A stretch of 64,000 bases of DNA from Altererythrobacter sp. TH136 (GTDB lineage Bacteria > Pseudomonadota > Alphaproteobacteria > Sphingomonadales > Sphingomonadaceae): the NCBI RefSeq assembly GCF_007065885.1, contig NZ_CP041409.1, positions 1 through 64,000 on the forward strand, read 5' to 3'. Positions 49,538-56,450 of this stretch are shown here, piece after piece. Made by a program: the position numbers and the translations under genes. Position 1 is the stretch's first letter. Every line of letters starts with the position of its first letter. The notes under the pieces were generated by a model, which was given only the letters and a program-made list of their open reading frames with translations, was not told where the DNA came from and did not search any database.

Positions 49538-51745
49538 TCAGCCGGCGATGGGCCGCGCGCTTTGATAGACCCCGGCGAACCGATCGATGGCCGACTGGAG
49601 CGACGGCATCGTGCGTCCGCGGTGGCTGGTAAGAGGACAAAAGCCGGGCCGTTCTGCAATCCACGCGGCTTGCGCAGCCGGAATGGCGGTGATCAGATCC
49701 TCGGCGGAGCCCGTCGCCGCAGCCAGGCGCCGCGCGAACTGATACCAGCTGATGCGTTCGTCGTTGGTGAGGTGCCAGATCCCATCTTTACCATCTATCA
49801 GCAGGTCGATCGTCTCGCGGCACAAGTCGGGAACGTAGGTCGGGGATATCACGCAATCGTCGACCGCCATGAAGCGCTCCCCCCGGCGAAGCGTGTCGAT
49901 GCAATGCACGGCGAAGTTGTGGCGGTCGTGCGGCGAGAAGAACGCCGCCGTGCGTACAATCAAGGCGCCATCGACCTTGGCCAAGGCGCTTTCCAGCGCC
50001 GCCTTGCTGGCTCCGTACACGTTGCGCGGCGCCGTTGCGGCGTCTTCTGAGTAGGGGGCACTTGCAGTCCCGTCGAACACCAGGTCGCTGGAGAAGCTGA
50101 CGCTTGCGATGCCTTCCTTCGCACAGGCTTCCGCCAGCGCGATCGCTCCGGTGGCGTTGGCGGCATGGCACGCCTCGCTCTCGGCTTCCGCGTCATCGAC
50201 CCGCACCCACCCCGCCGCGTTGATGACCGCCCACGGCTGATGGCGCTCGATCGCGGAGGCGATGGAGCCGGCGTCGAGCAGATCGAGCTCAGCGCGCGCG
50301 GTAATCACCGCAGGCAGGTCGCGGTGATGACACTCGCTCGTGAATGCCCGACCGAGCGTGCCGGTGGCCCCGGCGATCAAGATCGGCCGGTTGGCGGCTT
50401 CGCTTGTCCTACGGTGAACCGCCATCGGGGCAGGAGCGGCCGCGCGGGGGAAGGCGAGCCGGATGTCACGCCGCCACCATCCGTTACCGGCGCAATTCGC
50501 TGGCAAAGCCCCGCGCGCGCGAACGACATTCGCCAAAGCGGTCTCGCGCGGATGGCCGGAACTGACGTCGAAGGCGCCCGGCTCGTACCGGCCTTGCTTC
50601 GTAAGGAGCGTGTCCCAGCCCTGGCTGCCGAACAGCGCCCAGGCGGTCACCGCACGCACATCGACGCCGCGGGCGCGGGCCGCGCGCGCAGCCGCCCATG
50701 CTTCGGCCAGCCACCTGATCTGTTCCTCCCGCGTGCAACCGTTATGCACCTCGGTAAGTGCAAGAGGGCGGCCATAGCGGCTCCACGCCTCGTCGATCGC
50801 ACCCCGCAACCCCTGCGGGCCGGGGTCGAGCGCGCGAACTGCTTCGACGTCGGCGAACCGGGTCCGGTCGCTCCCGCCAACGGTTTCCGGAGGATAATTA
50901 TCGGTCCGATGATCAAGCAGGCGGTCACTGGTCAAATAGTGGTTGATGCCGATCACGTCGGGCGGAGAAGGATCGGCGTGGATGGCTTCGAGCCGGGCCT
51001 GCAGGCCGTACCCGCACAGGCGCGGCCACAGCGGGTGGTGCGCATCGACCATCCCGCACAGCAGGTCCCAGCTCATCCAGCGCCGCTGGTTGTCGAACGC
51101 CGCCTGGTTTCGCACAGCGAGGGTCGCGTACGTTCGGCCAAGATCTTCGGTCTGGATCAGACGGGCCGCCGGATTGACCCTTCGGATGGCGCGCATAGCC
51201 AGGCGGGTGGCATCGATTTGATTGAGCAAAGCCTTCCAGAACGATCGTTCGTCGGTCAGGTGGGGGTACCAGAAGCCGTATAGGGCTGAAAAGCGCGCGG
51301 TGGTGAGCGGCTCATTCACCGGCGTCCAGTCGTCGATCCAGGGGTATCGCTCCACCGTCCGGGCAGCATGATCCGCAAGGCCGGCCGCAAAGGCGGGGTC
51401 GAGCAGTGACGTATGCCGTGGGCCGCTGCCATGATGGATAAGCCCGGCGATAATGCCGATGCCGGAGGCGCGGAGCGTGCTTACACCCCGGTCGGTCCAG
51501 GTCCAGTCAGGAGGTCGATCCGGCGCAGGAGACACTCGCTCCCACAGGATCGGGAAGCGGACGGCGGACAAGCCCAGCGTGGCCATTAAACCGAAGTCAC
51601 CATCGCGCGAACCATGCTTGGTCGCGCACAACTGGTCGCCGAAGGCATCGTTGACCCGGTTAACCGTGCACTCGGCGCCGCCCCAGGCTTCGATAATTTC
51701 CGTCAGGTTCTCGCTCCGATCGCGTTCCTGAATAACAAATATCAA
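49538..51745 (-). CDS. Fusion of GH1-like glycosidase and RmlD-like sugar-nucleotide reductase
   Basis: About 735 residues; start uncertain (TTG 51745 is the upstream-most reasonable codon; the conserved part begins at IIEAWGGAECTVNRV). Residues ~15-430 are a GH1-family barrel: WGGAECTVNRV, SAVRFPILWERVSP, acid/base Glu in WTPVNEPLTTARF, and a nucleophile Glu in LALTEVHNG. Residues ~450-735 are an NAD(P)-binding Rossmann fold of the dTDP-4-dehydrorhamnose reductase type: ILIAGATGTLGRAF, and the catalytic YGASKAALE motif. No signal peptide. It is divergent from the GT-Glf gene (78 bp between the proposed starts). Probable role in a surface polysaccharide or glycoside. The frame continues far upstream only as antisense. 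Confidence 0.85.
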   Translation of the reverse strand: MIFVIQERDRSENLTEIIEAWGGAECTVNRVNDAFGDQLCATKHGSRDGDFGLMATLGLSAVRFPILWERVSPAPDRPPDWTWTDRGVSTLRASGIGIIAGLIHHGSGPRHTSLLDPAFAAGLADHAARTVERYPWIDDWTPVNEPLTTARFSALYGFWYPHLTDERSFWKALLNQIDATRLAMRAIRRVNPAARLIQTEDLGRTYATLAVRNQAAFDNQRRWMSWDLLCGMVDAHHPLWPRLCGYGLQARLEAIHADPSPPDVIGINHYLTSDRLLDHRTDNYPPETVGGSDRTRFADVEAVRALDPGPQGLRGAIDEAWSRYGRPLALTEVHNGCTREEQIRWLAEAWAAARAARARGVDVRAVTAWALFGSQGWDTLLTKQGRYEPGAFDVSSGHPRETALANVVRARGALPANCAGNGWWRRDIRLAFPRAAAPAPMAVHRRTSEAANRPILIAGATGTLGRAFTSECHHRDLPAVITARAELDLLDAGSIASAIERHQPWAVINAAGWVRVDDAEAESEACHAANATGAIALAEACAKEGIASVSFSSDLVFDGTASAPYSEDAATAPRNVYGASKAALESALAKVDGALIVRTAAFFSPHDRHNFAVHCIDTLRRGERFMAVDDCVISPTYVPDLCRETIDLLIDGKDGIWHLTNDERISWYQFARRLAAATGSAEDLITAIPAAQAAWIAERPGFCPLTSHRGRTMPSLQSAIDRFAGVYQSARPIAG

Positions 51746-51823
51746 GTATCTGATTTCACTGGCATAACCACGGAACCTTGCAGGGAGATAACGGTTCCCT
51801 TCACTCAACAGCAAGGATTCGAC

Positions 51824-54160
51824 ATGACGGACAAGGCCATGGTTCCGGGTGAGCGGGACGTAATGGGCGGGACGCTGATCTGCTTCAGCCATCTTCGCTG
51901 GAATTTCGTTTTCCAACGCCCGCAGCACCTCATGACCCGTCTCGCTCAATTCAACCGGGTGTTTTTCTGGGAAGAGCCGATCGAACGCCACGATGGCGGT
52001 GCGCCCGAACTGTCGGTCCAGCTTGATGCTGCGAGCGGCGTTACCGTGATCACGCCGCAATTGCCGGCAGGGTTGAGCGGCGAAGACGCCAACCGGATCC
52101 TCGCTGAGCTGCTGGACAATCTCGCCACCGGTCTGACCGGCCGCATGGTCCTGTGGTATTATACTCCCATGATGCTGCCGATCTCGCGGCAGCTCAACGC
52201 GGATTGCGTCGTATACGATTGCATGGACGAGCTGGCCAACTTCCGGTTCGCTCCGCCAGAGTTGCTGCCGCTGGAAAGCGAACTGATCGGGCGTGCCGAT
52301 CTGGTCTTCACCGGCGGATACAGCCTGTACGAGGCCAAGCGGGACCGCCATGCACGGGTGCATCCGTTCCCCTCGAGTGTCGATGGCCCGCATTTCGCGG
52401 CTGCGCGTGCGGGCGCGAACGATCCCGCGGATCAGGCCGGCTTCCCGCGGCCGCGCCTCGGCTTCTACGGCGTCATCGACGAACGGCTCGATCTGGAGCT
52501 GCTCGCGACCGTGGCCGATGCACGTCCGGACTGGTCGCTGGTGATGGTCGGGCCGGTGGTAAAGATTAGCGAAGACGACCTGCCGCGCCGCCCCAACATC
52601 CATTACCTGGGCGGCAAGGACTACACCGATCTGCCTGCGTATCTCAGCGGCTGGGATGCCGCATTGATGCCGTTTGCCATCAACGACGCCACCAAGTTCA
52701 TCAGTCCCACCAAGACCCCCGAATACCTCGCTGCGGGCCGTCCGGTGGTGTGCACCCCGATCACCGATGTCGTGCGCCACTATGGCGAGTTGGAAGGCGT
52801 GTTCATCGCCGGCGAGGCAGATGCCTTCATCGATGGTTGCGAGAAGGCCCTCGCACTCGGCAAGCAGGGGACCTGGCTCGACAAAGCCGACCGTGCGCTG
52901 GCGACGATGGACTGGGATCGCACGGTGACTGCAATGTGGCGCCTCGTGGACGAGCGGGTCGCCGAGAATGCAAAGCAGAGCTCGATCGTTTCGCCCAGGG
53001 GACTCGGCCCGGGCGAGGACGGTTACGACGTGCTGATCGTCGGCGCTGGATTCGCTGGAGCGGTGATGGCTGAACGGTTCGCAAGCCAGGAAGGCAAGCG
53101 AGTGCTGGTGGTCGACCGGCGACCTCACATCGCGGGCAATGCATACGACAAGCTCGATGATGCCGGGGTGCTGATCCATCAGTACGGGCCGCACATCTTC
53201 CACACCAACAGCGCTGAAATCTTCGACTACCTGTCGCAGTTCACCAGCTGGCGGCCGTATGAGCATCGCGTTCTGGCGCAGGTCGATGATCAGCTGGTGC
53301 CCATGCCGATCAACCGCACGACGCTCAACATGCTCTACGGGCTCGACCTGAAAAGCGATGCCGATGTCGAGCAGTTCCTCGCTGCCCGCGCGGAGCCGCT
53401 CGAGACCATCGAGACCTCGGAAGACGTCGTGGTCGCTGCGGTCGGGCGCGAATTGTATGAGACGTTTTTTCGCGGGTACACACGCAAGCAGTGGGGCCTC
53501 GATCCGTCAGAGTTGGACCGCAGCGTGACCGCGCGGGTCCCGACCCGCACCAATACCGATGATCGCTATTTCACCGATCGCTATCAGTTCATGCCCGCGA
53601 ACGGTTACACCGCGATGTTTGAACGGATGCTCGATCATCCCAATATCGATGTGCTGCTGGGGACGGATTACCGGGAAATTCGCGATATCTATCCGCACGC
53701 GCACCTCGTCTACACCGGGCCGATCGACGAATTCTTCGACCACCGCTTCGGGAAACTGCCGTATCGTTCGCTGCGCTTCGAACACGAGACGCTGGAGCAG
53801 GAGTGGTACCAGGAGACCGGCACGGTCAACTATCCCGACGAAGCGGTGCCTTTTACCCGCATTTCGGAATACAAATACCTGACCGGCCAGGATCATCCCT
53901 GCACCAGCGTGACTCGCGAATATCCTGCGGCAGAGGGTGATCCGTATTACCCGATCCCTCGCCCGGAGAACCAGGAACTGTTCAAGCGTTACGAAGCGTT
54001 GGCCCGCGCGCGAACCGATGTGACCTTTGTGGGACGGCTGGCGACGTACCGGTATTACAATATGGACCAGATCGTCGGGCAGGCGCTCGCATCCTTCCGT
54101 CGCTGGCAAGCCGCCTACGCAGCGGGCGAACAGCGCGAGTTGATCGCCACCGCCGCCTGA
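51824..54160 (+). CDS. Fusion of glycosyltransferase and UDP-galactopyranose mutase
   Basis: 778 residues from ATG 51824 (AAGGA upstream); a longer frame to 51614 is antisense to the divergent gene. Residues ~10-390 are a GT-B glycosyltransferase: LICFSHLRWNFVFQRPQHLMTR, VYDCMDELANF, PRLGFYGVIDERLDLELLATVA, FISPTKTPEYLAAGRPVVCTPI. Residues ~400-770 are a Glf-type mutase: FAD motif VLIVGAGFAGAVMAERFA, YGPHIFHTNSAEIFDYL, FFRGYTRKQWGLDPSELD. Glf turns UDP-galactopyranose into UDP-galactofuranose, and the fused transferase may use it or a partner sugar. Reported for a few bacteria, here complete and in frame. Confidence 0.92.
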   Translation: MTDKAMVPGERDVMGGTLICFSHLRWNFVFQRPQHLMTRLAQFNRVFFWEEPIERHDGGAPELSVQLDAASGVTVITPQLPAGLSGEDANRILAELLDNLATGLTGRMVLWYYTPMMLPISRQLNADCVVYDCMDELANFRFAPPELLPLESELIGRADLVFTGGYSLYEAKRDRHARVHPFPSSVDGPHFAAARAGANDPADQAGFPRPRLGFYGVIDERLDLELLATVADARPDWSLVMVGPVVKISEDDLPRRPNIHYLGGKDYTDLPAYLSGWDAALMPFAINDATKFISPTKTPEYLAAGRPVVCTPITDVVRHYGELEGVFIAGEADAFIDGCEKALALGKQGTWLDKADRALATMDWDRTVTAMWRLVDERVAENAKQSSIVSPRGLGPGEDGYDVLIVGAGFAGAVMAERFASQEGKRVLVVDRRPHIAGNAYDKLDDAGVLIHQYGPHIFHTNSAEIFDYLSQFTSWRPYEHRVLAQVDDQLVPMPINRTTLNMLYGLDLKSDADVEQFLAARAEPLETIETSEDVVVAAVGRELYETFFRGYTRKQWGLDPSELDRSVTARVPTRTNTDDRYFTDRYQFMPANGYTAMFERMLDHPNIDVLLGTDYREIRDIYPHAHLVYTGPIDEFFDHRFGKLPYRSLRFEHETLEQEWYQETGTVNYPDEAVPFTRISEYKYLTGQDHPCTSVTREYPAAEGDPYYPIPRPENQELFKRYEALARARTDVTFVGRLATYRYYNMDQIVGQALASFRRWQAAYAAGEQRELIATAA

Positions 54161-56353: not shown

Positions 56354-56450
56354 CGCGCGCTCCTGTTGGTAACGCGCCGAAGATGCGTACTCGTTCACAT
56401 AAGCGCAAGAACCCGGAACCGGTCAGCCACGGTGCACGTTGGGCGGGACA

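Follow-up and report, generated by a model that had tools for sequence, protein, structure and literature searches.

Divergent GH1-RmlD and glycosyltransferase-UDP-galactopyranose mutase fusion genes with an EcfG-type promoter signature in Altererythrobacter sp. TH136

The first 64,000 nucleotides of contig NZ_CP041409.1 of the sphingomonad Altererythrobacter sp. TH136 (assembly GCF_007065885.1), referred to here as the window, carry a pair of fusion genes for carbohydrate enzymes (Table 1). Profile searches place a glycoside hydrolase family 1 (GH1) domain ahead of an RmlD domain in the minus-strand protein (GH1-RmlD), and a GT-B glycosyltransferase (GT) ahead of a UDP-galactopyranose mutase (UGM) in the plus-strand protein (GT-UGM). 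A preliminary description had reported two back-to-back two-domain fusions; these are genuine, with matches to PF00232, PF04321, PF13692 and PF03275, although their starts needed correction. The mechanically called open reading frames 49538-53266 (-) and 51614-54160 (+) overlap each other, an antisense arrangement that was ruled out because the starts are over-extended. An ATG, GTG or TTG lies no more than 20 codons ahead of a conserved W-G-x-E-C motif in 62 of 66 homologous GH1 reading frames, and the start options of the GH1-RmlD frame are a TTG and, by eye, a CTG behind GGAG. GT-UGM probably starts at the ATG behind AAGGA. The two genes would then be divergent and separated by 78 or 117 bp, depending on the start used. 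No signal peptide was evident in the pair on inspection by eye.

Table 1. Features of the gene pair and of related promoter-like sites and loci. Positions refer to the window unless another locus or the genome is named.
Feature	Position	Strand	Remarks
GH1-RmlD fusion gene	49538-51706	-	Probable start CTG 51706, alternative TTG 51745
GH1 (beta/alpha)8 domain	50431-51703 (boundaries approximate)	-	Acid/base Glu in TPVNEP, nucleophile Glu in TEVHNG
RmlD-like NAD(P)-dependent reductase domain	49541-50385 (boundaries approximate)	-	GATGTLG and YGASK present
GT-UGM fusion gene	51824-54160	+	778 aa
GT-B glycosyltransferase domain	51869-52972 (boundaries approximate)	+	TuaH-like, fold near MshA-type GT4 enzymes
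UGM domain	53024-54100 (boundaries approximate)	+	D. radiodurans type
Palindrome GGAAC-N17-GTTCC	51772-51798		EcfG-type promoter signature, both strands readable
Plus-strand reading of palindrome	GGAAC 51772-51776, GTT 51794-51796	+	
Minus-strand reading of palindrome	GGAAC 51798-51794, GTT 51776-51774	-	
Palindrome between nepR-ecfG and CHASE-HWE histidine kinase	L117 4993-5019; genome C1:2267992		
Palindromic EcfG-like site between DNA photolyase and PAP2 phosphatase	L118 about 2178-2205; genome C1:599677		
EcfG-like motif directly before topoisomerase IB	56415-56440		Reading frame from 56439, likely ATG 56451
GGAAC-N16-18-GTT site	47429	+	Before class III alcohol dehydrogenase (47537); possible EcfG target
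GGAAC-N16-18-GTT site	15517	+	Before reading frame 15756; possible EcfG target
GGFECSTHRR family loci	L137 8491-9636; L139 994-3342; L125; L128; L136; L138		

The UGM domain scores 274.9 bits against PF03275 and 397.2 bits against TIGR00031, above the equivalog cut-off of 303.75, and is 69% identical to the solved Deinococcus radiodurans UGM (3hdq), which bears out the galactofuranose (Galf) theme proposed earlier. Enzymes of this family interconvert UDP-galactopyranose (UDP-Galp) and UDP-galactofuranose (UDP-Galf), and the case that the window domain forms UDP-Galf is strong by homology. The D. radiodurans enzyme (Glf) is a free-standing chain, whereas the window UGM sits behind a GT-B domain (PF13692, 34.8 bits). 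The best NCBIfam relative of the GT domain is TuaH (NF047676) of teichuronic acid biosynthesis, but the score of 88.2 bits is far below the cut-off of 550 and there is no teichuronic acid pathway in a Gram-negative. The AlphaFold model of GT-UGM is partial (mean pLDDT 75), and its UGM half is poor because most alignment rows held GT only; the GT half resembles MshA and sucrose-phosphate synthase and the UGM half the D. radiodurans enzyme. Of the two structure predictions proposed earlier, this one is weaker than that of GH1-RmlD, where both halves fit known folds.

Three types of UGM, defined by identity and profile scores, accompany the GT. Most loci have a D. radiodurans-type UGM at 60-81% identity to that of the window. 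In Bacteriovoracales and Microbacteriaceae the gene order is GT, GH1(-RmlD), UGM, and the UGM is of the classical type (35-41% identity); among those scored, the L093 enzyme falls just under the TIGR00031 cut-off and the L095 enzyme just over it. Three Massilia genomes (L100-L102) have the GT joined in one chain to a different flavoprotein, which in L100, the only one searched, has the eukaryotic-type UGMs 4dsg and 3ute as best PDB matches (E about 1e-47). A GH2 gene adjoins the GT fusion in L100 and L101. Because one GT lineage is repeatedly joined to distinct UGM types, there is good reason to regard UDP-Galf as the probable donor and Galf as the sugar transferred.

The GH1 domain matches PF00232 at 28.3 bits (cut-off 22.6) and the AlphaFold model of GH1-RmlD has a mean pLDDT of 93.2. 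Its N-terminal half has the (beta/alpha)8 fold and superposes on Thermotoga maritima BglA (2j7h) over 375 residues with Z 33.9 and a root-mean-square deviation of 3.0 (Foldseek, VIA-align). The acid/base and nucleophile glutamates (E148 and E335 of P0002) are invariant in all 68 rows of an alignment of the family, as are an N-x-Y pair, the second His of HHGSGP and two Trp. Partial or frame-broken sequences (L074, L081, L097) were left out of this alignment; a second one comprised 57 of 70 scan loci and the window, keeping L074 and leaving out L044, L076-L078, L081, L088-L092, L094, L095, L097 or near-duplicates. The preliminary description had considered all catalytic motifs intact, and they are present in the window proteins, but the sugar pocket of the GH1 domain differs from that of characterised GH1 enzymes. 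We take the usual glycone contacts of GH1 beta-glucosidases to be Gln20 and Glu405 (T. maritima numbering). The Glu405 position, in the C-terminal E-W pair, is Asp in 45 and Gly in 23 of the 68 rows; the Gln20 position, mapped by eye from the W-G motif, is Asn in 51 and V, A, L or S in the others. The domain shares its fold (Z about 34) and both catalytic glutamates with the beta-glucosidases of T. maritima (BglA), Caldicellulosiruptor and other sources, but it has 18% identity, lacks their E-W Glu and N-terminal Gln, is fused to RmlD and, at 48.6 bits, is far from the TIGR03356 beta-glucosidase equivalog cut-off of 478.5. Since the catalytic glutamates are invariant and these two positions are changed, the predicted enzyme retains the machinery of glycoside chemistry with a sugar pocket that is unlike that of a beta-glucosidase. 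It may edit or transglycosylate a Galf product.

The RmlD half matches PF04321 (195.3 bits), superposes on 1vl0 (Z 37.1, 27% identity) and, in the window, has the Rossmann GxxGxxG and the YxxxK of an RmlD-like short-chain dehydrogenase/reductase fold. These features are common to dTDP-4-dehydrorhamnose reductase, but the domain does not reach the TIGR01214 equivalog cut-off (198.9 against 224.05 bits), there is no neighbouring Rml gene, and the motif is lost in part of the family: the YxxxK Tyr is retained in 48 of the 68 rows, with gaps in 8 more. RmlD is decayed or absent in L075-L078, L080, L082, L083, L085, L087-L092, L094 and L095, where the GH1 catalytic residues stay; loss in L076-L078 was judged from length and match range, and L089 is truncated by a contig end. 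The idea that GH1 and RmlD act as a tight two-enzyme unit is not supported across the family, and RmlD as an obligatory partner is weakened; because its catalytic motif or the whole domain is lost where GH1, GT and UGM persist, RmlD looks accessory or optional. A second RmlD homologue is located elsewhere in the genome (C1:1699016).

GH1-RmlD is found in 9 of 59 sampled family genomes, and all nine are among the 14 that hold GT and UGM, the latter two being fused in 12 of these and encoded by single genes side by side in 2 (hypergeometric p = 1.6e-7, with no correction for kinship). In G029, one of the nine, the match reaches residue 494 only. The genes are divergent in the window and G008, convergent in G053, collinear in G029, in a row of GT, UGM and GH1-RmlD in G012 and G022, and on separate contigs in G034, G010 and G050. 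The sample includes one further member of the genus, G047, in which both GH1-RmlD and GT-UGM are absent. Among 84,980 species genomes scanned, 70 GH1-RmlD loci were found, mostly in sphingomonads and Massilia, with further hosts among cyanobacteria, Ktedonobacteria, Thermomicrobiales, Bacteriovoracales, Cytophagales, Terriglobales and Microbacteriaceae and in a Byssovorax metagenome-assembled genome. Overall, the gene spreads through cyanobacteria, Chloroflexota, Deinococcus, Bacteriovoracales, Bacteroidota and actinobacteria, partly on plasmids. GT and/or UGM lies in the fetched flank of 47 of the 70 scan loci. When the 23 loci with neither, together with L065, were re-searched in their 23 genomes, GT was found in all 23 (47-68% identity) and UGM in 20. 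Co-occurrence elsewhere, which the preliminary description had proposed as a check, is thus upheld, and by their distribution we infer that GH1-RmlD and GT-UGM are functional partners.

From the intergenic palindrome, GGAAC-N17-GTT faces both genes. Promoters of EcfG, the stress sigma factor of alphaproteobacteria, have the form GGAAC-N17-20-GTT in Sphingomonas melonis Fr1 (PMC6599016) and GGAAC-N16-CGTT in Sphingopyxis granuli TFA (PMC7083833). We searched for GGAAC-N16-18-GTT up to 300 bp upstream of the GT loci. Of 16 divergent alphaproteobacterial pairs, window included, 15 have the motif pointing toward GT; three of the 16 (window, L030, L034) have the two-way palindrome, and in L037 and L098 there is a site in each direction. 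Of the 44 other alphaproteobacterial loci, 35 have it ahead of GT, compared with 1 of 23 outside the class. With scrambled -35 boxes there were 0, 0, 1 and 0 matches among the 44 and with the reversed motif 0; a one-base shift of the box (GAACG) still matched 11 of 44, since this box and the true site overlap. No pair of loci reaches 99% identity, and clustering at 80% DNA identity yields 28 groups, with the motif in any member of 21 and in all members of 19. In four genomes where the genes lie apart, the motif stands before both in three (G050, G034, G053) and before GT only in G010. Four further plasmid loci have it within 300 bp in three cases, the site of L137 being just outside.

Next to nepR, the window genome has a gene for a sigma-70 r2/r4 protein, on which the assignment of an EcfG-like sigma factor rests; PhyR and an HWE kinase are encoded as well. 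Topoisomerase IB, which follows the gene pair and has its own EcfG-like motif, is a listed EcfG target in S. melonis Fr1 (PMC6599016), so that its motif acts as a positive control. The window shares GGAAC-N16-20-GTT promoters with the regulons described for S. melonis Fr1 (PMC6599016) and S. granuli (PMC7083833), and the topoisomerase IB target with the former. Taken with the conserved upstream motif, this makes predicted EcfG control of the pair strong for a motif-only case. The EcfG-type promoter proposed for the Galf gene pair is new here; literature searches found no account of a GH1-RmlD/UGM pair, nor any of UGM under EcfG, although supplementary EcfG regulon tables may already list these genes.

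The reading we favour, and judge rather probable, is a stress-regulon module that makes and edits a Galf conjugate. Under stress, EcfG would transcribe both genes from the one palindromic promoter, a step suggested by the motif, its conservation and the presence of NepR, EcfG-like and PhyR genes. The UGM domain would then turn UDP-Galp into UDP-Galf, and the GT domain of the same chain would pass this sugar to an acceptor, as its repeated pairing or fusion with different UGM types implies. The cytosolic GH1 domain, with invariant catalytic glutamates and changed glycone contacts, would trim or transglycosylate the Galf product or its acceptor, acting on a sugar other than the usual beta-glucoside, and RmlD would be an optional reductase or scaffold. 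The probable outcome would be a protective surface glycan, glycolipid or glycoside; that the product is protective is plausible. Galactofuranose is best known from pathogen cell walls, and if this reading is true it would also be a stress metabolite or glycan of free-living bacteria under the alphaproteobacterial general stress response. A bolder version, which we find possible but doubtful, is a mobile stress-induced Galf system in which a GH1-fold enzyme has turned into a cytosolic biosynthetic transglycosidase on Galf compounds, making a protective glycoside or glycolipid. If true, such a system would link bacteria of exposed habitats as far apart as sphingomonads, Deinococcus and cyanobacteria. 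The pair supplies named genes for a specific test, together with a GH1 subfamily whose sugar pocket is changed. Many targets of the general stress response are listed as hypothetical proteins (PMC6599016).

Among the 71 loci, other neighbours include GalE-like genes in 8, GH2 in 11 and GH5-like genes in 11, counts that are lower bounds. The nearest named PDB relatives of the GH2 are the beta-D-galactofuranosidases 9j6n/9j6m and its best match is 7XYR; 9J6M belongs to GH2_18 and 7XYR to GH2_19, a group active on furanosides (PMC12243196). The GH5-like neighbour has no PDB relative at E 0.1. GH2 matches (E 1e-30) were present in 3 of 59 family genomes and absent from the window genome, which rules GH2 out as a constant part of the module there. 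These GalE-like, GH2 and GH5-like neighbours fit the galactofuranose theme. A distant GH1 relative (25% identity, E 2e-9), Pfam-poor and resembling a cytosolic glycosidase, is located near GT and UGM in Azospirillum, rhizobia, Deinococcus and some sphingomonads including G046, and is referred to by its motif GGFECSTHRR. The D. gobiensis version forms a fusion with an acyl-CoA dehydrogenase, and PIG-L and NodS-like genes are next to it. Three findings go beyond the preliminary description: the EcfG-type promoter, the exchange of one UGM type for another, and the additional GalE and cytosolic glycosidase-like neighbours.

Several points weigh against a stress-regulated Galf module. What is shown is anatomy, conservation, co-occurrence and a promoter signature, and the reading is built on these. 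The motif occurs in 20 of 564 control upstream regions from genes of the same alphaproteobacterial loci, a contrast that is overstated since these controls include operon-internal genes and mechanically called reading frames and used a 250-bp window rather than 300 bp; the comparison with loci outside the class is free of the operon problem. The exact motif is missing from 9 of 44 alphaproteobacterial GT loci and, among stand-alone GH1 genes of the class, is present in only 5 of 15. The palindrome shows no genome-wide enrichment, with 4 sites in the 2.6-Mb window genome against 9 for a reversed control pattern, and the case therefore rests on placement and conservation. The pair is unnamed among the targets described for S. 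melonis and S. granuli, although the S. melonis account gives top targets only (PMC6599016, PMC7083833). Outside the alphaproteobacteria, regulation of the module must be different. No polymerase, flippase, exporter or acceptor gene was seen beside the window pair in a Pfam scan of the nearest flanking genes. Finally, in fold the GT comes closest to retaining GT4-type enzymes, which suggests an alpha-Galf product, whereas GH1 and GH2 act on beta-linkages.

The same missing polymerase and flippase count against the alternative that the genes belong to a scattered pathway for a structural surface polysaccharide or lipid glycan, with stress control incidental and GH1 a cytosolic quality-control glycosidase. 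UGM and TuaH-like GTs are characteristic of pathways that make envelope glycans, in the related Azospirillum locus an ABC transporter comprising membrane and ATPase domains comes after the GGFECSTHRR gene, and homologues of this transporter (at least 53% identity) lie beside the same genes in L058, L087 and L096. We nevertheless think this unlikely, as the EcfG motif is conserved over many alphaproteobacterial genera, and at both genes when they are apart, and frequent plasmid carriage with a patchy spread is unlike a core envelope pathway. The preliminary description had likewise noted no Wzx/Wzy nearby, and the scan of the nearest flanking genes agrees.

A catabolic role, in which GH1 and its GH2 or GH5 neighbours free sugars from a glycoside taken up by the cell and the resulting nucleotide sugar is interconverted by UGM, would suit the dominance of clan-A glycosidases in the neighbourhood and a cyanobacterial plasmid locus that also has galK, galT and a GH2. 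It is improbable all the same: a chain that forms or uses UDP-Gal and is fused to a GT argues for synthesis, no sugar importer is among the module's own genes in the window, and stress-type promoters are unusual for substrate-induced catabolism. Least probable, and already disfavoured, is that the two genes are chance neighbours and GT-UGM alone is a functional unit. GT-UGM does occur without GH1-RmlD in 5 of the 14 family genomes and in rhizobia and Azospirillum, but G046, Azospirillum and rhizobia have the distant GH1 relative near GT-UGM instead, adjacency recurs in several gene orders and phyla on top of the complete co-occurrence, and both genes have the promoter motif when apart.

The genes on either side of the window pair are ordinary: an aldehyde dehydrogenase, a class III alcohol dehydrogenase and an S-formylglutathione hydrolase on one flank, and a nitronate-monooxygenase-like protein and topoisomerase IB on the other. 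One of the other palindromes in the genome lies 23 bp ahead of nepR, and the CHASE-HWE histidine kinase may, to judge from this placement, be autoregulated together with the sigma factor. GH1-RmlD or its GH1 part was found in 25 plasmid records, including those of Sphingobium, Deinococcus, Caballeronia, Runella and Gloeothece. Stress genes lie near some plasmid loci, such as a catalase and a Fur-family regulator in D. deserti, and the 38.8-kb plasmid pRUNSL05 of Runella slithyformis (L115) carries GT and GH1-RmlD together with a ferritin-like protein and dinB.

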